Positions 7,722-58,605 of a DNA stretch of 64,000 nucleotides are shown one piece after another; position 1 is the stretch's first letter; every line of letters starts with the position of its first letter. The DNA is from Tessaracoccus massiliensis (GTDB lineage: Bacteria > Actinomycetota > Actinomycetes > Propionibacteriales > Propionibacteriaceae), in assembly GCF_000826065.2 (NCBI RefSeq), contig NZ_LN623543.1:350144-414143 (forward strand), read 5' to 3'. The translations under genes were made by a program, and so were the position numbers. A model generated the notes under the pieces. It made no database searches. It had not been told where the DNA came from and was given only the letters and a program-made list of their open reading frames with translations.

Positions 7722-10355
7722 TTATCGCTGTGCGGGGGACCCGAACATCACGATGTTGTTGAACACCCACTGGTTGCTCTGCGAGAAGGCGTACCCACCT
7801 TCAGGCTTCGCAGTCGCGGCGTACACCGTCGTCATGGTGTACGAGCGGCAGGCGCCCCGACCGGTGGCAGCCGTGTCGCACTCAGTGCGCCACTGACGAC
7901 CGGCCGACGTGAACTGACCGTTGTTCGTGGACCCGAGGTCGCCCAGCGGGTTGCCCTTCCACGATTCGCGGGTCATGTACGGCAGGTAGGTCAGGTTGTT
8001 GAACGCCCAACCGCTCTCACGGACGAACTGACCGTTCTCCACCTTCACCACGGTGGCCCAGATGTCGGTGCGGCACCGCTCGGTCTGCGAGTAGTCCTCG
8101 CACGTCGTCATCCACTGCCGACCGTTCAGCACATGGTTGCCCGGCAGCGTGTAGGGCGCCGAGCGGACGAACTTACCGGGGCCTGGCTGGGCCGGCGGAG
8201 TGGCCGGCGGAGGCGTCGGCGGAGTGGTCGGCGGCGTGGCCGGCGGCGTGGTGGGCGGCGTCGGCGTCGGCGTAGCCTTCGGCGTCACCGTGATCGTCAC
8301 CTCCACCGTCGTGCTCAGACCGCCGGCGTCGGTCACCGTGACCAGGACACGGTGCGCCCCGGTGACCGTCGTCGTACCCGAGATGAGGCCGTCGTCGCTG
8401 ATCGACAGCCCGGTGGGCAGCCCGGTCGCCGCGAAGGTGACCGCGGAGGCGTCGGCGGCGCGCACCTGCAGCGACAGCGCCGTGCCGGCCACGACGGAGG
8501 CGTTCTCTCCTCGGACGACCGGAGGAGTGGTGTCCTGGCCGGTGAGGTCGACGGAGAACTCACCCAGCGTGGTCCACGGGTGGGCCGGGTTCTGCGCCGA
8601 CTTCGACACCAACAGCAGATACTGCGCCTCAACCGGCTGCGTGAACGGGATCCACTGCGGCGACTGCCCACCGGGCAGTTCACCCTCGGCGACCTTCGTC
8701 CAACCGGCAGGCACAGCACCCGGGGTGCCGGTGGTGTTCGTCGCGACGGCACGGTCGTTAGTCGCGTAGAGCTCGAAACCCTTGATCTGGCCGTTGACCG
8801 CACCAGACGACACACCCTGACGCGGCGTCAGCGTCACCGCGCAGATCTCAGCCGACTCGGCCAGACCCACCACGAGCTGATGAGGATGCGGCGGCTCGGC
8901 ACCGTTCCAGCGTGTGTGCCAGAACGTTGTCGGGTTCCCGTCGATCACGTTGATCGCAGGCGCACGCTCGGCAGTGTCGTTCTGCTCGCTCGAGACCCGC
9001 ACGACCTCACTGGGCGAGGTGACGTTGGCGGTGCACGAGAAGTTCAACGGCACGCTGGTGGTGCGCTCACGCGCCTCACCTGCCCCGTCGGTCCACGACG
9101 TCACGAACTCGAGCACCTCCGCACCGGCCGGGCCCGCGCTCGGGATGCGGAAGTTCAGATTCTCCTGGGCCTGGCCGGCGAGGTTTCCGACGTCAGCGGC
9201 GTCGACGTCGACCAGCCAGCCGTCAGGCAGGACAGGGGTGACGAGGACGCTGCTCACCGCAGCGTCCTCGAGGTTGCGGACGATGACGGGCACGCGAACC
9301 GTGACGCCGGCGATCACGCGCCCGAGGGAACCGGTCGTGGCGGCGACGCCGTCGCCGACCATGGCGAAAACCGTCCCGGCCTCTTCGATCGGGTCCTGCT
9401 GCGCCACATTGGCGCCGTCGACCACGAGGGGCATGTTCGAGATGGCGTTGGAAATGGTGTAGCCACCATCGACCTGTCGGATCCACCACTTCTGCAGGTT
9501 GCCCGCCTCACGCGGGGTCGACGTGCAGGTGGTCACGATCGGCTCCTGGCCGAACGTATTGGGTGCCCGCAGGTTGAGAGAGTCGCCCTCCGCCATGGCG
9601 AGGCACGGGAAGCGCAGCGTCTCGTGGATCTCGGAGAAGAGCTGGTTCTCAGTCTTCCCCGGGCCGTAGTCGGGCCACAGCACCATCTTGCCGCCGAGGA
9701 TCTTGCCCGGCGTGGCGGAATCGTCGATGGGGCGGCCGTAGTGGGAGTGCGGCGTCCAGTTCTCGTTCCAGCGATCCTGCGCGGCGCCCCAGTTGTTGTT
9801 ACGCGTGAAGTAGGGACGGTTGTCGGTGTTGACCACGTCGCTGCCGTCGCTCAGCGTCTTCTCCATGGTGCGACCCTGGCGGTACCAGTACTCGACCATG
9901 ATGTCGTTGTCACGCTTGACGGTGTTGTCCTGGGCCGGGATGCCGTCGTTCCAGATGCGGAGGTTGGCGCCCTCAGACTTCACATGCTCGTTGATCTCGT
10001 TGATGAACCAGACCAACAGGTCGTGCTCCGTCGCGTCCGGACCGAACTTTTCACGGGCGGCCGCGATGATCTGCGGGTAGTTCTGGAAGGAACCGGAACC
10101 GAGCAGATACTCGTCGGTCCACAGCTCGTTCATCTTGTAGTAGGCCATCTCCTTGATGACCTGCTCGAACTTCTCCATCGAGATGTTCACGATGCACGCA
10201 CAGATGCCGCCGGCACGGATCGTGTAGTCACGCTCGATCATCGGGGCGTAGTCGGTCGACAGCGTGTTGGGGCCGTTGCCGAGTCGCTGACCGGGTCGGG
10301 TGAAGACTGCGTAGGCCTCGGCGGGACGCACCGTGCTCCACGTCGCCTGGGCCAG
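7722..10355 (-). pseudogene. GH20 beta-hexosaminidase-like exoenzyme, 5'-truncated, with shared C-terminal module
   Basis: An open frame runs from just after an in-frame TAG (10356-10358) to the stop near 7722. It has no signal peptide and no complete TIM barrel. In order it encodes LAQATWSTVRPAEAY (end of one GH20 domain), a second GH20 part with the catalytic-site motif LWTDEYLLGSG, FINEINEHVK, LRIWNDGIP and a WPDYGPGKT segment, an NPCBM/NEW2-like stretch, a discoidin-like (F5/8 C) domain with NVIDGNPTTFWHT, an Ig-like putative domain (LPTGLSISDDGLISGT), a Pro/Thr linker and the Cys-repeat C-terminal module (7722-8180). GH20 enzymes remove terminal HexNAc or lacto-N-biose from glycans. The reading frame is intact after the TAG, but the missing secretion signal and domain halves argue for a remnant. 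Confidence 0.8.
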
Positions 10356-10770
10356 CTAGCGCAGGGTCTCGTGGATTTCCGAGAAGAGCTGGTCAGTCTT
10401 CCCCGGGCCGTTGTCGGGCCACAGGCCATCCTGCCGCCGAGGATCGTGCCCTCGGCGGCGGCGTCAGAGATGTCGTCTCCCAGATAGCGGTGGGGCGTCC
10501 AGTTCTCGTTCCTACGATCAACCGGGTTGCCCCAGTTGTTGTTCCGGGTAAAGTAGAACGTGTTGTCGAGGTTGAGGACGTCGTGCCCGGCCGCGAGCGT
10601 GTCCTGGAAAGTGCGTCCGTGGTCGTTCCACACCTAGACGACAATGTCCCTGTCCAGCTGCACCTGGGTGGGGGCGGCGGGGATGCCGTCCTGGAAGATG
10701 CGCAGCCTCGCGCCCTGCGTCTTGACGTGGGCGTTGACCTCAGCGACGATCTCGACGTGGTGCCGCGCGA
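10356..10770 (-). pseudogene. Second GH20 catalytic fragment with nonsense and frameshift lesions
   Basis: Read on the minus strand this encodes EVNAHVKTQGARLRIFQDG, then DRDIVV, a TAG, VWNDHGRTFQDTLAAGHDV, YFTRNNNWGNPVDRRNENW and GTILGGRM. After a one-base deletion it continues in another frame as LWPDNGPGKTDQLFSEIHETLR and a TAG. It parallels the GH20 part at 9600-10010, so the ancestral enzyme seems to have carried two related GH20 modules, or two genes were fused. It abuts the pdxY fragment of the right-hand 730-bp repeat at 10770/10771. Two stops and one frameshift make it non-functional. Confidence 0.82.
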
Positions 10771-11125
10771 CGCACAGGAACTGCGCGCCCGCGGGCCGCG
10801 CGTCGTGGTGGTCACCTCCGTGGTGGGGGAGGACCTCACCGACAACGTGATGCGCATCGTCGGGGTCGACGACGCTGGAGCCTGGGTGGTCACCACGCCC
10901 GTGCTGGACCGCAAGTTCACCGGCTCCGGGGATCTCACCACCGCCATGTTCCTCGCACGGTGGCTCGAGAAGGGTGACCTGGGCGACGCACTGGGCCGCA
11001 CCGCATCGATCGTCTACTCGGTGCTGGAGGCCACCGCTAGCGCCGACCACAAAGAACTACGGCTCGTGGATGCGCAGCTCGATCTCGTCGAGCCGCGCTT
11101 CCAGTTCGAGGCCAGCCGGCTGTAG
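10771..11125 (+). pseudogene. 3' fragment of pdxY (duplicate)
   Basis: Last 118 codons of pyridoxal kinase, from AQELRARGPRVVVVTSVVG to the stop, with the frame intact and no start or upstream half. Both substitutions relative to the complete gene in this stretch are third-position, silent changes. The upstream sequence is the broken GH20 gene on the opposite strand, so nothing drives or starts this fragment. Confidence 0.93.
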
Positions 11126-11500
11126 CGAGCGGCTCCCCTCGCCGTCAGTTCTCGTCTGCGGGCTCGCCCCAGAACGTGTTGATGGAGGCGCCCAGTTTGT
11201 TGAGGCGCTGCGGGAGGTCCTCGTAGCCGCGGTTGATGACGTAGACGTCCATCAGCGTGGTGGTGCCCCTCGCAGCGAGGGCGGCCAGCAGCAGGCACAC
11301 CGCCGGACGCAGCGCCGGCGGGGATTCGATGCGGCGTCCGCGCCAACTCGTCGGCCCGATGATCAGGAGGCGGTGCGCGTCCATGAGCTGGATGTTGGCG
11401 CCCAGCTCCGAGAGCTTCTTCAGGTGGATGGCGCGGTTGTCGTAGACCCAGTCGTAGATGACGCTCTGCCCGGTGGCGGTGGCGCAGATGACCGCGAAGA
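10771..11500. repeat. 730-bp direct repeat, right copy
   Basis: Right-hand partner of 6661-7390 (726 of 730 bases identical). It contains the 3' fragment of pdxY and the 3' end of the intact MurA-like gene. The offset between copies is 4110 bp, so 3,380 bp of unrelated debris lies between them. Confidence 0.95.
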
Positions 11501-12686
11501 ACGGCAGATTGTCGATGTTCAGGCCGGGGAACGGCATGGGGTGGATCTTGTCGAGAGGCGCCTTGAGTTCCGAGGGGATCACCGTCACGTCCACGAGGCG
11601 GGTCTTGCCGTTGCGGCTGGCGTACTCCTCAGAGAACTTCAACTGCTGGCCCATCTCGTCGAGCACCGCGAACTCGACGTCGAGGAATTCGATGGGGCAG
11701 CGGCGCACCATGATCTCCGAGCGCGTGACGATGCCGGCGGTCAGGAGGCTCATCGCCTCGATGGGGTCCTCCGAGATGCTGTACTCGACGTCCTGCTCGA
11801 TGTGTTCGACACCGGTGACTGTCAGGGTGGTCGTGCCCACGCCGTCGATCTGGACGCCCAGCAGCTGCAGGTAGAAGCAGAGGTCCTGCACCATGTAGTT
11901 GCCCGATGCGTTGCGCAGCGTGGTGACCCCGGGGGTGCGGGCGGCCGCCATGAGCGCGTTCTCCGTGACCGTGTCGCCGCGCTCGATCAGGGTGATGGAG
12001 CGATGCTCCTCGGAGCGTTCGCCGACGGCGGCGTGGTAGTTGCCGTCGGTGGCCTCGACGGTCAACCCCATGCGGCTCAGCGCCGACATGTGGGGGTGGA
12101 CGGTGCGGGCGCCGAGGTCGCAGCCTCCGGAGAAGGGGAGACGGAAGTTGCAGAACTCATGCATGAGGGGGCCCAGCAGCATGAGGATCGAGCGGGTGCG
12201 CTTCGCGGCGCGCGCGTCGATGGTCTCGGGGGTGAGCTGCGCCGGGCGCCTGATCTCGAGATCGTTGTCCCCGATCCAGGTGAGGGTCACGCCGATGGAG
12301 GTGAGCACCTCCGAGATGCGGTCCACCTCCTCGATGCGGGCGATCCCACGCAGGACGGTGCGGCCGTGATTGAGGAGACTGGCACACAGGATGGCCATGG
12401 CCGCGTTCTTGGAGGTGCGCACGTCGATCTCGCCGGACAGGGTTCGCCCGCCCTCGATCTCGAAGTTGACCGTGCCCTCGGTGGCCGTCTGGATCAGCGG
12501 CATCTCCAGGGCTTCGGCGAGGCGCCCGATCATGGACAGGGAGAGGTTCTGCTGGCCGTTCTCGATCCTGTGCACTGCGCTCTGCACGGTGCCCAGTTCG
12601 GTGGCCAGTTTCTGCTGCGACCAGCCGCGGGCGGCGCGGGCGTCGCGGATCATCTGACCGATCGACTCACTCGTTGCACTCATCAT
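11145..12686 (-). CDS. HTH-fused UDP-N-acetylglucosamine 1-carboxyvinyltransferase-like protein
   Basis: A 513-residue protein with an N-terminal XRE-type helix-turn-helix (residues 8-65: IRDARAARGWSQQKLATELG, then SAVHRIENGQQNLS) fused to a MurA/EPSP-synthase-fold domain. In the MurA part the substrate Lys-Asn pair is K93-N94 (RTSKNAAM) and the PEP-reactive Cys is retained as C189 in SGGCDLGAR. MurA catalyses the first committed step of peptidoglycan synthesis. HTH-MurA fusions are known in actinobacteria beside a normal murA, and this is probably a second, regulated copy. The start is ATG 12686 (GTG 12689 and ATG 12683 are alternatives). A perfect dyad lies immediately upstream. Its 3' end is duplicated at 7035-7390. 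Confidence 0.9.
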   Translation of the reverse strand: MMSATSESIGQMIRDARAARGWSQQKLATELGTVQSAVHRIENGQQNLSLSMIGRLAEALEMPLIQTATEGTVNFEIEGGRTLSGEIDVRTSKNAAMAILCASLLNHGRTVLRGIARIEEVDRISEVLTSIGVTLTWIGDNDLEIRRPAQLTPETIDARAAKRTRSILMLLGPLMHEFCNFRLPFSGGCDLGARTVHPHMSALSRMGLTVEATDGNYHAAVGERSEEHRSITLIERGDTVTENALMAAARTPGVTTLRNASGNYMVQDLCFYLQLLGVQIDGVGTTTLTVTGVEHIEQDVEYSISEDPIEAMSLLTAGIVTRSEIMVRRCPIEFLDVEFAVLDEMGQQLKFSEEYASRNGKTRLVDVTVIPSELKAPLDKIHPMPFPGLNIDNLPFFAVICATATGQSVIYDWVYDNRAIHLKKLSELGANIQLMDAHRLLIIGPTSWRGRRIESPPALRPAVCLLLAALAARGTTTLMDVYVINRGYEDLPQRLNKLGASINTFWGEPADEN

Positions 12687-12693
12687 CACATCA

Positions 12694-25488: not shown

Positions 25489-28377
25489 GTGCTCTCCCCC
25501 GCCTTTCCGCGGTCCATCCGCGTGTTCATCGTCGCCCTCGTCGTCATCGCGATCGCCGGCCTCCCGCTCGGCGCTCAAGCGCTGGGTGAGACCTCCTCGC
25601 GGACCCTGGAGGTGCTGGAGGCGGGCAACCCCGTCATCGCGCAGACAGGGGTGGGACGCGGCGACGGGATGGCCCGCGAGTCGACGGGGCTGGCGCTGGC
25701 TGCCGGCGCCGTCGTCGAGGCCAGGGTCACCAACGGGGTCCACGGGGTTCAGCTGTCACTGATGACCGACAGCAACCGGACCGACCGCTCGGCCGATCTG
25801 CCGCCGAACGGCGCCTGGGTCCCCGTGACGGCCGCAGCCGATTCCGGCGTGTTCTTCCTCCTGCGCGACGACCGGTCCTGGCCTGTCGCGCCGCAGGTGG
25901 AGTGGCGCGTCGTCAGCGGGACCGCCTACGCCATGCCGGAGTATCGCCTGGGCGACTCACCCACCCAGTTCCTCGCCGCCTGGGACGCCTCCGATGCGCC
26001 CTTCGCCGTGCTCGTGGATCCGAGCTTCTCCATGCTGGTGCCCATCCTCGACCGGGATCTGCTCCGCAGTTGGGAATGGTCTCAGTTCGACAGCCTCGAC
26101 GACGCCATCGAGGGCTACCGCCACATCATGAGCACCTACAACCAATGGCTGGGCCTCGATGACGCCGATCCCAGGACCGAGCACCACAACGACGAGCAGC
26201 GCTACTTCCTCAGGCCCGACCGCAACGGCTGGGGCTACGCGTACTACCAGTCTGGCAACTACGTCGGCACCAGCGAACCCAGCATCAAGCCCTACCTGCT
26301 GGGTCCCCACGCCTGGGTGATCCTGCACGAGACCGCCCACGGCTACGACGGGCTCATGACCCGGCCCGCGGACGGCACCGACATCCAGCTCGGCGAGGTG
26401 TGGAACAACATCTACGGCTACCACTATCAGAAGCTCGTCCACGACGTCGACGAGTGGCTCTACTGGGGCCGCAAGGCCCCGGAGCAGGGGGCCATCGACG
26501 ACAAGCGCATCGCGAACGGAGGCGTCCTCCCCTATGCCGAGCTGGGCTTCCGAGAGCGGCTCGACTTCATGGTGCGCATCGCCGAACTCACCGGAGACGT
26601 CGAGGGCCTGCGCGCCTTCAACCGAACGCTGCGCACGCTCGAAGCTGACGGCGCCAGGCCCGCCGCCCAGCGGCGCAGCGACCTGATCGCGGAACACTGG
26701 GGCCTGGTCAGTGGCGTCAACCTCGTGTCCTGGTTCGAGTCCTACGCCCTGCCCCTCAGCCCCGCGCTACGCACCCAACTCCTCGACGTGACGCCCGCCA
26801 CCATGGCTACGCCGCTGCGCGACCTGTATCCCTCCTACGAGGCGACGGCCGCCGCTGCAGCGAATCTGGGGCTGGAGAGTGCCGGCAGCCTCGTGCCCAC
26901 CGCCACCACCCGTACCATGGGCGTGACCACCACCGCGCGCGTCACGATGACGGGCGACGTCTCCGGAGTCGAGGGCCGCTACGTGACGCTCTGGGACGGA
27001 GCGGAGAAGGTTGCCACCGCACCCTTCGTGGCGGGTACCGCGACTTTCGCCGATCTGCCGATCGGCACTTACACCGTCCGCTACCCGGAGCACCGGGGCA
27101 CCGGGCACGTGCCGGCATCTGGCTGGCTGCTGGCACCCGTCAACACACCAGATTCGGGCAACGCCGCGGTCACCTACCCCGCGGAGGCCACCCCGTCGTC
27201 CGTCGGCGGCGCCCGGCTCAACTTCCTGGGCTTGAGCGACGTGTCGTTCGCGTCGCTGACCCACGATCCGGTGCTCGGCACCCTGACGTTGGAGGACCGG
27301 ATGGTGGAGCCCCACTCCTACTTCTCCAACGACTACACCTCGGTACTCGTCACGTCTCCGACGGGCGCGACGCTGCTCGAGCGCAGCTTCGTCGGCAACA
27401 CGATCTCCAAGGGACCCGCCAGCCAGGCGGTCTCCGCGCCAGTGGGCACGCTCGTCGAGGTGATGCACCTTGAGCCTCAGGCTCGGCTGCGCCCTGTGGA
27501 TGTCACCACCGGTGAGTCGCGCGTCGATCTCGCGACCGATCAGCAGACGACCACCTACCTCGTGACCGAGTACGGCCTCGTCAAGCAGGAGTCCCCAGAG
27601 GCCGCGCTGCCCACCTACCTCGCTGCCCTCGAAACCCGCCTGGTGCACCTTGAGGCTGCCGCCGAGGGCGAAGGGTGGTTCGCACCCCAGGCAGCGGCGC
27701 TGCGCGCCTCCATCCTCGCCCTCCCCGCAGCACAACGCGACGCCCTGGCCGGCAAGTACGGAGAGCTCCTCGACGCGCTGGTGCAGCCAGCCACCGAGCC
27801 CCGCCCCGCACCAGAGCCCACGGTCACCCCGGAACCCACCGTCACCCCGAAACCGACGGCCGCACCCACCCGCACCGATCCACCGCCGTCGCCCGCGCCC
27901 ACGTCGAAGCTCTCAACCCCGACACCGGCGAAGAAGTACGTGCCGACGGCCCCGTACACCAAGGCCGGCCTCCACACCATCAACGGCCGCCGCTGGAACA
28001 CCACCTGTGAGCCCTACTCCCACACCGTGCGCTGCCGCACCGACATCTGGGCCACCGTCATCACCCACACCAACGGCACCTACCAACGCAACGACGGCTG
28101 GGCCTTCAACAACCTCACCTACCTGCCCTACATGACCGAAACCGCCTGGAAAGGCAACCCCCTCGCCATGCACAACATGGACGGCTTCACCTCCGGCGGC
28201 CGCCAGTGGCGCACCGAATGCCACACCCCCCAAACCGGCCGAGGCGCCTGCCGCAGCTACACCATGACCACCGTCTACGCAGCAACCCCCAAGACCGCAG
28301 GCGGCTACACCTTCTCCCAGAACAACCAGTGGGTCTTCAACAACATCGTCCTCTTCGGCGACCCATCCTGGCGATGA
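25489..28377 (+). CDS. Secreted M60-family metallopeptidase with C-terminal Cys-repeat module
   Basis: A 962-residue secreted protein. It has a signal peptide (FIVALVVIAIAGLPLGAQA, cleavage near residue 32) and a peptidase M60/enhancin-like domain with zinc motif H280-ETA-H284 and E303 18 residues later. A beta-rich middle and a helical segment (about 720-770) follow, then a Pro/Thr-rich linker (775-815) and the shared C-terminal module (815-962: KKYVPTAPYT, CRTDIWATV, WAFNNLTYLPYM, WRTEC, WVFNNIVLF). M60 peptidases cleave mucin-like glycoproteins in gut bacteria. The start is GTG 25489 with only a weak ribosome-binding site. A 40-bp repeat of its 3' end lies upstream. The codon use resembles its neighbours. 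Confidence 0.88.
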   Translation: MLSPAFPRSIRVFIVALVVIAIAGLPLGAQALGETSSRTLEVLEAGNPVIAQTGVGRGDGMARESTGLALAAGAVVEARVTNGVHGVQLSLMTDSNRTDRSADLPPNGAWVPVTAAADSGVFFLLRDDRSWPVAPQVEWRVVSGTAYAMPEYRLGDSPTQFLAAWDASDAPFAVLVDPSFSMLVPILDRDLLRSWEWSQFDSLDDAIEGYRHIMSTYNQWLGLDDADPRTEHHNDEQRYFLRPDRNGWGYAYYQSGNYVGTSEPSIKPYLLGPHAWVILHETAHGYDGLMTRPADGTDIQLGEVWNNIYGYHYQKLVHDVDEWLYWGRKAPEQGAIDDKRIANGGVLPYAELGFRERLDFMVRIAELTGDVEGLRAFNRTLRTLEADGARPAAQRRSDLIAEHWGLVSGVNLVSWFESYALPLSPALRTQLLDVTPATMATPLRDLYPSYEATAAAAANLGLESAGSLVPTATTRTMGVTTTARVTMTGDVSGVEGRYVTLWDGAEKVATAPFVAGTATFADLPIGTYTVRYPEHRGTGHVPASGWLLAPVNTPDSGNAAVTYPAEATPSSVGGARLNFLGLSDVSFASLTHDPVLGTLTLEDRMVEPHSYFSNDYTSVLVTSPTGATLLERSFVGNTISKGPASQAVSAPVGTLVEVMHLEPQARLRPVDVTTGESRVDLATDQQTTTYLVTEYGLVKQESPEAALPTYLAALETRLVHLEAAAEGEGWFAPQAAALRASILALPAAQRDALAGKYGELLDALVQPATEPRPAPEPTVTPEPTVTPKPTAAPTRTDPPPSPAPTSKLSTPTPAKKYVPTAPYTKAGLHTINGRRWNTTCEPYSHTVRCRTDIWATVITHTNGTYQRNDGWAFNNLTYLPYMTETAWKGNPLAMHNMDGFTSGGRQWRTECHTPQTGRGACRSYTMTTVYAATPKTAGGYTFSQNNQWVFNNIVLFGDPSWR

Positions 28378-56139: not shown

Positions 56140-58605
56140 TCACCGGAACATGACGATGTTGTTGAACACGAACTGGTTGCGCTGCGAGAACTCGTAGCCG
56201 CCGGCCGTCTTCGGGCTGGCCTGGTAGACGGTCACCTCCGCGTAGGTGCGGCACCCGTTGCCGCCGGTGGCGGGGGTGTCGCACTCGGTGCGCCAGTTGC
56301 GGCCGTCGGTCTCGGCCTTCCATTCGCCCGTGATGGCGAGGGGATTCTGGCCCCAGGCTGCGCGGGTCATGTACGGCAGGTAGGTGAGGTTGTTGAACGC
56401 CCAGCCGGTCTCGCGGACGAACCGGCCGTCAACGATCTTGACCACGGTGGCCCAGATGTCGGTGCGGCACCGCTCGGTCTGCGAGTACTTCTCGCAGGTG
56501 GTGTTCCAGTCGCGGCCGTTGAGGTTCTTGTGCAGGCCCGCCAAGGTGTACGGCGCGGACGGCACGAACCGCGTGGCCGCCTGGGTGGGCTCATCGGTCG
56601 GCTCATCCGTCGGGGCGGCAGTCGGCTCGTCCGTAGGCTCGTCCGTGGGCTGCGTGGGCTCCTCCGTGGGATCCGGCAGCACCCGCGAGATCAGCCACTC
56701 GGACTGGTCGAGCGCATGATCGACGAGGCGGGTCTCGCCCAGGCAGCCGAGGAAGCCGCTCTGGCGCTGCCCGGCATAGGAGCCGGCGCCCAGCACCCAG
56801 GGCAGGCCCCCATCATTGCCCACGCCCAACGCGTCCTTCACGTTGCGCAGCACCGGGACGCCGTTGACGTACATGGTCAGGGACCTGTCCGAGGGGTCGT
56901 TGACCGCGGCGATGTGCATCCAGTCAGCCAGGTTGACGATCTCCCCCGACCAGGCGGAGAAGTCACGTAGTTGATCGCCCTGGGATTCCATGAAGGAGAA
57001 CTGCACCTCCCGCAACGTCGAAAACGCCCACGCGAACGGGGGCTCCTCCCCCTCGGATGAGACGTAGCCGTCGACGTTGCCCCGCTGGCCGTCACGGCTG
57101 AGCCAGGCCATCCAGGCGTTGAGACTGTTGTCGTAGGCGGGATCCACCTTGACGAAGGTCTCGAACGTGAAGCCGTTGTCGAACTCCTCCATGTTGACCG
57201 GCGCGCCGTCGGCCGTCGTGAAGTAGGAGGCCACGTTGCCGTCGCGGGAGGCGTTGTCGAAGCACACGGAGCCGAAGTTGGACGAGCCGGGGGCATGGTC
57301 CGGAGAGAAGGTCACGTCGCTCTCTCGGGCTCCTGTGACCGGGCCCTCATTGAGCGGGGCGCGGGTCATGTCGTTGCCGGCGGCGATGTCCTCGATGACG
57401 GTCCCGGACGGCGCCACCGTCGAGGCCTCGACGACGGGGATGCGCCAGTGGGCGACAGTCCCCTCGACGACCGGGTAGTCGTCGTCAGCGGTGGCGTTGC
57501 GGTACTCGACCGGCTCTGGCGCTGCGAAGCCGTCGAACGTGGCACGGAGCTTGGCGATGTAGGAGGGCTTGTCTGCGGCTCCCACCTGAAGGCCTGGGAA
57601 GCGCTCGGCGAAGTTGAAGTCGATCGAGAAGCTGCGGGCGCCGCCCTCGAGGATGGGCTGGTCGAACTCATTGAGTTCCGCCTCCGGCTTCTCGGTGACC
57701 CAGTTGGAGAAGGTGAGCTGGGAGATCACGTTGTGGGTCAGGTCGAACTCCACCAGACCCATGTAGCCGTTGCCGCCCATGTAGGCCATCTGGTGATCCA
57801 TGAGGATCTGATGGACGGGATTGCCGAAGCTGTTGGTGCGCTCGAGGTGGGCGGCGCCGTGGTGGTGGCCGTTGAAGGTCAGGAACACGTTGTCGTGCCT
57901 GGTGATGAGGTTGTCAAAGACCCAGTCCCCGAAGCCGGTGCTGACGGCGGTCTCACCGTCGGGGGCAACGTTGATCAGCTGGTGCGAAGTGAGGATCGTC
58001 GGCACGCCCGCATGCGCCGTCAGCAGGGCATCGGCCCACGCCAGCGCATCGGCCTGCGCGCCCCAGCTCAGGGCGAGGACGGCGAACGTCTGGCCATCGA
58101 CGGTGAACTGGTGGTACTCGTGCGCGCCGTACGTGGCGTCGCGCTCGACGAGCGTCTCATTGAGCGCCGCCCGCTCAGGACCGAACGCGGCCAGGTACCG
58201 CTCATAGGGCATGTCGTGGTTGCCGCCGATGACCGAGTAGTTGATGCCCGCGTCCTCCAGGATCCGCATGGAGGCGTCCGCGACCTCCCATTCCTGGTCC
58301 TGCCCCGCGCGGTCCACCACATCGCCGAGATGCAGCACCATCTGGGTGTTGTAGTCCTCGGCGTGGTCCGCCCAGAACTGCGTCTGGGAGGCGAAGGGGT
58401 TGGAGCCATAGCGCTCCATGAACAGGTCGCCCTGCCCCTGCGTCGCGTACCGGGAGTAGAACTGCGTGTCCGGCAGAATGCCCAGGGTGAACCGGGCCCC
58501 AGCCTCTGCGGGCTCGGCGTGCGCTGCGGGCGATCCCCCGGCCAGTCCGGCGATCAGGGAGATCGCCAGCACGGCCATGACGAGGCGTTTGAGTGGTGAC
58601 AGCAT
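56140..58605 (-). CDS. Secreted metallophosphoesterase with LamG-like domain and C-terminal Cys-repeat module
   Basis: An 821-residue secreted protein. The signal peptide is MLSPLKRLVMAVLAISLIAG..., cleaved after AHA (30). A calcineurin-like phosphoesterase domain has D46 in LPDTQ, GDVVD (94-98), GGNHD (127-131), TSHQLI and NGHHHG. A LamG/concanavalin-like domain covers about 440-655, a Glu/Pro/Thr-rich linker (EEPTQPTDEPTDEPT) about 655-678, and the shared module 679-821 (RFVPSAPYTLAGLH, CRTDIWATVVKIVDG, WAFNNLTYLPYM, WRTEC, VFNNIVMF). ATG 58605 has an AGGAG site. The substrate is unknown. The LamG part suggests glycan or surface binding. Confidence 0.87.
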   Translation of the reverse strand: MLSPLKRLVMAVLAISLIAGLAGGSPAAHAEPAEAGARFTLGILPDTQFYSRYATQGQGDLFMERYGSNPFASQTQFWADHAEDYNTQMVLHLGDVVDRAGQDQEWEVADASMRILEDAGINYSVIGGNHDMPYERYLAAFGPERAALNETLVERDATYGAHEYHQFTVDGQTFAVLALSWGAQADALAWADALLTAHAGVPTILTSHQLINVAPDGETAVSTGFGDWVFDNLITRHDNVFLTFNGHHHGAAHLERTNSFGNPVHQILMDHQMAYMGGNGYMGLVEFDLTHNVISQLTFSNWVTEKPEAELNEFDQPILEGGARSFSIDFNFAERFPGLQVGAADKPSYIAKLRATFDGFAAPEPVEYRNATADDDYPVVEGTVAHWRIPVVEASTVAPSGTVIEDIAAGNDMTRAPLNEGPVTGARESDVTFSPDHAPGSSNFGSVCFDNASRDGNVASYFTTADGAPVNMEEFDNGFTFETFVKVDPAYDNSLNAWMAWLSRDGQRGNVDGYVSSEGEEPPFAWAFSTLREVQFSFMESQGDQLRDFSAWSGEIVNLADWMHIAAVNDPSDRSLTMYVNGVPVLRNVKDALGVGNDGGLPWVLGAGSYAGQRQSGFLGCLGETRLVDHALDQSEWLISRVLPDPTEEPTQPTDEPTDEPTAAPTDEPTDEPTQAATRFVPSAPYTLAGLHKNLNGRDWNTTCEKYSQTERCRTDIWATVVKIVDGRFVRETGWAFNNLTYLPYMTRAAWGQNPLAITGEWKAETDGRNWRTECDTPATGGNGCRTYAEVTVYQASPKTAGGYEFSQRNQFVFNNIVMFR

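Follow-up and report, generated by a model that had tools for sequence, protein, structure and literature searches.

A portable four-cysteine repeat module on secreted proteins of Tessaracoccus massiliensis, a candidate cell-wall-binding domain

Three genes of the window end in the same module

The window analysed here is a stretch of 64,000 nucleotides from Tessaracoccus massiliensis (contig NZ_LN623543.1, positions 350,144 to 414,143 of the forward strand). An earlier note on this DNA described an unplaced module of about 145 residues at the C-termini of three secreted proteins, and translation and alignment bear this out. The first copy ends a secreted M60-type metallopeptidase (open reading frame 25489..28377, + strand), which has a signal-peptide-like start, a Mucin_bdg domain (PF03272, E 6.5e-14, residues 578-697), a linker rich in proline and threonine (P/T-rich; 27784..27927) and module copy 1 (27928..28374), with two repeats and four cysteines. 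The M60 assignment rests on a PDB phmmer match to EfmM60 chain 35ym_A (E 2.8e-25, residues 63-531), because the Pfam M60 profile PF13402 had no match anywhere in the genome. The second copy (7725..8177, - strand) closes a GH20-related frame (7722..10331) in which Pfam finds a partial GH20 catalytic domain, an F5/8 type C domain and an Ig-like domain; its P/T-rich linker lies at 8178..8282. The frame contains no signal peptide, and it is therefore probably a degraded gene that still carries a complete module. The third copy (56143..56577, - strand) ends a secreted metallophosphoesterase (56140..58605; PF00149, E 1.7e-06) with a Laminin_G_3 domain (PF13385, E 5.6e-13) and a P/T-rich linker (56578..56679) recognised as PT repeat PF04886 at residues 646-676. 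The enzymes upstream of the module thus differ in activity, and a P/T-rich linker precedes each copy, as had been claimed. Earlier coordinates agree with ours to within a few bases, but copy 3 begins slightly earlier and its stop codon is 56140-56142. Each of the three modules runs up to the stop codon or falls one residue short of it. Copies 2 and 3 are 69% and 64% identical to copy 1, and 82 invariant columns, the four cysteines among them, are listed in the three-copy alignment.

The module consists of two repeats of the pattern G-R-x-W-x-T-x-C-x8/9-C ... W-x-F-N-N. In copy 1, repeat 1 (W-x-T-T-C-x8-C ... W-x-FNN) occupies 27973..28125 and repeat 2 (W-R-T-E-C-x9-C ... W-x-FNN) 28186..28356. 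The halves are homologous by HHalign, as their description as two repeats implied (probability 98.5%, E 2.4e-15, 51 columns; 86 sequences used from a 91-sequence alignment). Exactly four cysteines occur in 70/70 modules that cover at least 100 profile positions, 54 from this genome and 16 read out of the 43 matches in a related genome, G003. The AlphaFold model of copy 1 (150 residues) has a mean predicted local distance difference score (pLDDT) of 94.4 and a predicted template modelling score (pTM) of 0.85. The earlier note had proposed structure prediction as a check; the one copy modelled has a confident fold, and the copies form one alignable family. Aromatic residues make up 13.7% of the module, and its mean net charge is +3.5 (range -3 to +10). 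Such a charge would suit an anionic wall polymer, but it decides nothing.

The statement that the module cannot be placed in a named family stands, and the profile search that had been proposed matched no characterised domain. When 60 modules were compared with all of Pfam at E<=1, 17 families were listed and none covers the module; SLH, CWB1, CWB2, LysM, SH3b and the other wall-binding families of Pfam did not appear. The best Pfam matches, DUF4295 (4 members, E 0.0018) and DUF6147 (1 member, E 0.0021), were taken as noise. Dermatopontin (PF14704) shows a weak likeness to 3/60 modules (best E 0.042, not significant) and is absent among the fold matches listed. No NCBIfam family covers any of the 60 modules (best E 0.026, chance level). 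Against PDB chains, profile alignment A2 had no match at E<=10, and profile alignment A5 had a single one, to a phage coat protein (E 0.71), which is not usable. Fold matches among PDB and viral predicted structures were mostly single-stranded-DNA-binding proteins with a template modelling (TM) score of ~0.2 and a root mean square deviation of ~15 A, and were rejected as chance sheet matches. The module is a domain family that neither Pfam nor NCBIfam covers. In open-licence literature on Tessaracoccus, Arachnia/Pseudopropionibacterium, non-LPXTG anchoring and propionibacterial LPXTG proteins, no title or opening of an abstract treats it.

Copies, positions and partners of the module

Searching the 3.2 Mb genome with one module as query gave 59 matches, and the 60-sequence profile also gave 59. 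With E-values of 6.6e-104 for the query itself and 3.8e-78 for the next match, chance is excluded. The three proteins of the window are therefore real members of the family but far too few, as the genome holds some 54 to 59. A signal-peptide-like start is present, by a simple rule, in 47/54 proteins with a near-complete module compared with 129/1400 shuffled starts, a control that includes the 16 proteins from G003. Within the genus, the module occurs in 15/39 genomes with 573 matches in total (59, 64, 48, 53, 43, 39, 11, 66, 42, 17, 37, 1, 48, 16 and 29 per genome) and is absent from 24. A search of the family found it in 15/198 genomes, all within one of 29 genera, and a phylum search with a wider profile found only the T. 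massiliensis genome (1/396). With 20 candidates per genome scored in the family search and 10 in those of the class and the phylum, scarce or divergent copies may have escaped notice. Among 291 relatives in named genomes the best 80 are all Propionibacteriaceae by title, and their carriers include Tessaracoccus bendigoensis, T. antarcticus, T. rhinocerotis, T. coleopterorum, T. lapidicaptus and uncultured Arachnia.

The position of the module bears on whether it binds the surface or directs sorting, which the earlier note had left side by side. A C-terminal sorting signal for a dedicated secretion or transpeptidation machine, possibly removed afterwards, would resemble the C-terminal domain of the type IX secretion system (T9SS CTD) or PEP-CTERM. 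Near-terminal placement speaks for it: 41/54 near-complete copies finish within 14 residues of the stop codon, L074 is also C-terminal despite a profile-truncated match, and at the loci of the named relatives 92/104 copies end no more than 8 residues from the C-terminus (10 end farther away and 2 are cut off). The C-terminal placement seen in all three window genes does not hold throughout, however. Of the 13/54 copies farther from the stop, all except L074 lie behind the signal peptide with 56-630 residues downstream of the module, which makes 42 C-terminal and 12 N-terminal copies; a strictly C-terminal sorting signal is therefore not supported. The module is also predicted to be a compact domain, and its copies have neither a hydrophobic segment nor a basic tail. 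Sorting is thus a very improbable explanation. The surface-binding half of the earlier claim is favoured by the constant four cysteines, the confident fold and the diversity of the partners.

Some copies are nearly identical on proteins that are otherwise unrelated. Module pairs at least 80% identical number 49/1431 in this genome, and for 17 of them the remaining protein sequences show no similarity at E<=1e-3. A fucosidase and a pullulanase have modules that are 99.3% identical; in the DNA, 97% identity extends over 535 bp, beginning at the linker and ending exactly at the stop codon. Between L044 and L045, 89% identity reaches ~125 bp past the stop. Judged from these alignments, such modules are what a copied 3'-end cassette would leave; no copying mechanism was seen.

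Fifty-three module proteins of this genome match 68 Pfam families jointly at E<=1e-5. Individual scans identified glycan enzymes (GH20, GH101, sialidase-type BNR, NAGidase, GH123, fucosidase, GH35, GH85, GH92, GH3 and pullulanase), two subtilases, a 5'-nucleotidase, a purple-acid-type phosphatase, an Exo_endo_phos protein, CAP and leucine-rich repeats. Peptidoglycan-active partners are an Rpf-type transglycosylase (E 1.9e-30), YkuD (L,D-transpeptidase, E 1.5e-15), NlpC/P60 (E 8.4e-24) and an M23 peptidase (E 1e-13, module C-terminal), and there is also a polysaccharide deacetylase (E 2.9e-14). Among the N-terminal copies, 11/12 were scanned and 8/11 have an identified partner: the Rpf-type transglycosylase, YkuD, NlpC/P60, the polysaccharide deacetylase, an M14 peptidase, an Ltp-type domain, a C5-epimerase-type domain and leucine-rich repeats. 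L062, L066 and L070 have no partner domain in the Pfam scan. A recurring C-terminal domain of ~170-185 residues follows the N-terminal module in five proteins (L062, L107, two in L149, and L168); it had no Pfam match in the three scanned (L062, L107 and L149:10951-12144), and neither did the C-terminal domain of L170.

With so many glycan enzymes, several of host-glycan type (GH20, GH101, sialidase-type BNR, GH85, fucosidase, GH123 and M60), the module might bind carbohydrate or mucin and steer enzymes to glycans of an animal host or of food. The aromatic content of the module would fit this, and one of the 60 modules matches CBM_35, though at chance level (E 0.11). Yet the same module sits on pullulanase, nucleotidase, subtilases, L,D-transpeptidase, Rpf and NlpC/P60 proteins, and near-identical modules are shared by enzymes with different substrates. 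Some of the named carriers, T. bendigoensis, T. antarcticus and T. lapidicaptus, are environmental isolates. Distant relatives, described below, sit on peptidoglycan enzymes. We therefore regard binding to the host or to a substrate as unlikely.

In the class-wide sample, distant relatives of the module were found in 5/393 other genomes (E 8e-22 to 2e-10). Four of these genomes belong to one small family, in which 4/5 genomes carry exactly three copies, located on three adjacent genes; the fifth genome has a module fragment at a contig end. Pfam was run on 5/12 proteins of the trio and gave Amidase_2 twice (E 1.6e-14 and 1.5e-13) and SpoIID once (E 7.1e-14); the remaining seven were assigned from sequence. 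The third gene had no Pfam match in the two proteins scanned and looks M15/extensin-like by eye, and its one weak PDB match, to a 'LysM domain-containing protein' (E 0.0077), did not settle its identity. In the complete distant copies all four cysteines are conserved, and so is the greater part of the G-R-x-W pattern. Because these copies sit on amidase and SpoIID genes, the module is tied to peptidoglycan enzymes in a separate lineage. This also bears on another possibility, that the module docks onto a surface scaffold or S-layer protein by a dockerin-like logic. Docking would account for the interchangeable display of many enzymes and for the confinement to part of one genus, but a distant family with just three copies in each genome, carried by enzymes that are or look wall-active, seems to need no scaffold. 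We consider docking improbable, slightly more so than host binding. In terminating an amidase and a SpoIID-type protein, the distant relatives resemble the cell-wall-binding domains of endolysins and autolysins. They differ from these in that neither tblastn against 50,697 phage records nor one viral-contig scan found a relative, and a phage origin was rejected.

Exchange of endings on a conserved 5'-nucleotidase

The core of the T. massiliensis 5'-nucleotidase has matches in 34/39 genomes of the genus. C-termini were read in 31/34 (30 loci, and L257 for G015; G012, G008 and G057 were left out). Eleven of the 31 end in the module, 18 in an LPxTG-like sequence and two, G021 and G052, in neither. 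The LPxTG-like endings, for example PGLPSTGN and PGLPKTGA, lie immediately 5' of the stop codon, with three extra residues in G024. In a tree of 30 cores, built without the split G016 gene, 6 changes are required to account for the module ending, and the starred branches force at least 5 of them. Tree neighbours with unlike endings are G011/G049 (support 100/98), G003/G050 (80/88) and G056/G015 (92/91). Among the loci in hand, BLAST matched 22/44 LPxTG-ending frames to a module protein; 19 of the 22 belong to the same nucleotidase family, some loci being counted twice. A similar exchange is seen in the other three pairs, L240 and L084 (66% over 467 aa), L255 and the GH20 protein L039 (41% over 425 aa) and, weakly, L256 and L142 (31% over 368 aa). 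The phosphoesterase core of the window gave no second series of orthologues, since it was found only in its own genome (1/39 at E<=1e-30).

A genome-wide trade-off between modules and tail-less LPxTG endings was not significant (Mann-Whitney p 0.076; Spearman -0.22, p 0.17), and the claim of an exchange therefore rests on the comparison of orthologues. Sortases are encoded in 39/39 genomes of the genus, and we therefore rejected the idea that the module makes up for a missing sortase.

The module resembles the LPXTG/sortase signal (PF00746, PF04203) in its C-terminal site on secreted, P/T-linked enzymes and in its replacement by an LPxTG-like ending on the orthologous 5'-nucleotidase of relatives. 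The two differ in that the module has no LPXTG motif, membrane segment or charged tail, and is a folded domain of ~145 residues that is also used at the N-terminus. Viewed as possible sortase substrates, the C-terminal modules finish in ...FNNIVxF or a similar sequence and a short stretch after it; inspection by eye showed neither the motif nor a hydrophobic tail. In accordance with the earlier note, no LPXTG, SLH or choline-binding family matched.

The tail-less ending is itself frequent. The pattern P-G-L/F-P-x-T-G-x just before TGA or TAA occurs 183 times in 32/39 genomes, compared with 3 for the reversed pattern; examples are G000:C13:34124-34150 and G000:C17:900828-900854 in the T. massiliensis genome, and loci L236-L265. 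Of the 30 frames read, most have a linker rich in proline, threonine or serine upstream and a few look like chance frames. One paper describes DsA1 of Cutibacterium acnes as having an LPXTG motif without a membrane-spanning domain or charged tail (PMC5527093), and another, on three human propionibacteria, has nucleotidase or phosphoesterase proteins as the recognisable ones among C-terminal LPXTG proteins (PMC3848858).

Cell-wall binding as the proposed function

We propose that the module represents a new family of non-covalent cell-wall-binding domains and displays secreted proteins, and we give this reading, drawn from sequence comparison and a structural model, a probability of roughly 0.7. 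What we find is a portable repeat module on secreted proteins, wall hydrolases included. Known non-covalent wall-binding modules of Gram-positive bacteria, as tabulated in one paper, are SLH, CWB1 choline-binding, CWB2, LysM, GW/SH3b, WXL and CW_7 (PMC5817068 Table 1). The present module is likewise repeat-based, portable, present in many copies per genome and located on wall hydrolases as well as unrelated surface enzymes. It differs in having no sequence match to them and a narrow distribution, and a wall ligand is our inference.

A protein secreted by the Sec pathway would fold outside the membrane. From the cysteine spacing, two disulfides, one per repeat, would lock each module. The paired repeats might then grip a component of the cell's own wall, peptidoglycan or a wall polysaccharide, and the flexible P/T linker would display the bound protein, so that the enzyme may be retained at the surface. 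Within part of one genus, tens of unrelated secreted proteins in each genome seem to have acquired the module by copying of a 3'-terminal cassette. At least one conserved enzyme has repeatedly switched between the module and the tail-less LPxTG-like ending.

Several observations weigh against wall binding or the exchange of endings. Clear wall enzymes carry only three or four of the 12 N-terminal copies, and among the 42 C-terminal copies a wall enzyme was identified on only one (M23); most partners act on other glycans, phosphoesters or proteins. The scarcity of wall enzymes among the C-terminal partners lowers our confidence slightly. A receptor protein at the cell surface would also be compatible with the data. 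Phage relatives, as reported above, were not found. On the nucleotidase, 2/13 module-bearing genomes read, G022 and G015, which have few modules, retain the LPxTG-like ending, and two module-less genomes have neither ending. Module endings also retain some clustering on the tree (6 changes or fewer in 12/500 shuffles), and some of the exchange could be due to gene transfer. Genomes with the module do not have significantly fewer LPxTG-stop sequences, and all of them keep sortases like the rest of the genus. As the function of tail-less LPxTG is unproven, the equivalence of the endings alone is no proof of wall attachment.

More tentatively, and at somewhat less than even odds, an undescribed domain family, possibly with a new fold, may serve as the surface-display system of part of a genus, spread as a cassette, swapped among relatives between covalent and non-covalent attachment, and sharing ancestry with a wall-targeting domain of the peptidoglycan-enzyme trio in a second actinobacterial family. 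If it does attach proteins to the wall, the module would add an attachment signature that Pfam and NCBIfam do not cover to the limited Gram-positive set, and would predict much of the surface proteome in module-bearing Tessaracoccus/Arachnia-type bacteria. In T. massiliensis this would comprise some 50 predicted surface proteins, many of them glycan-degrading enzymes. Whether the two endings are equivalent can be tested directly, since they have been exchanged repeatedly on one conserved enzyme, and this exchange bears on tail-less LPXTG proteins too.

Some minor features were observed near module genes. At G000:C17:924-943 kb, four module genes (GH20, a beta-helix protein, fucosidase and a GH101-like protein) lie within ~18 kb, likely as a glycan-degradation island. 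In the window, a second GH20-like remnant with stops and frame changes precedes the GH20-related gene (7722-11100, - strand), and the region is probably a decayed duplicated enzyme gene. Adjoining these remnants is a frame that by eye resembles a MurA-type enolpyruvyl transferase with an N-terminal helix-turn-helix segment (11145-12689, - strand).

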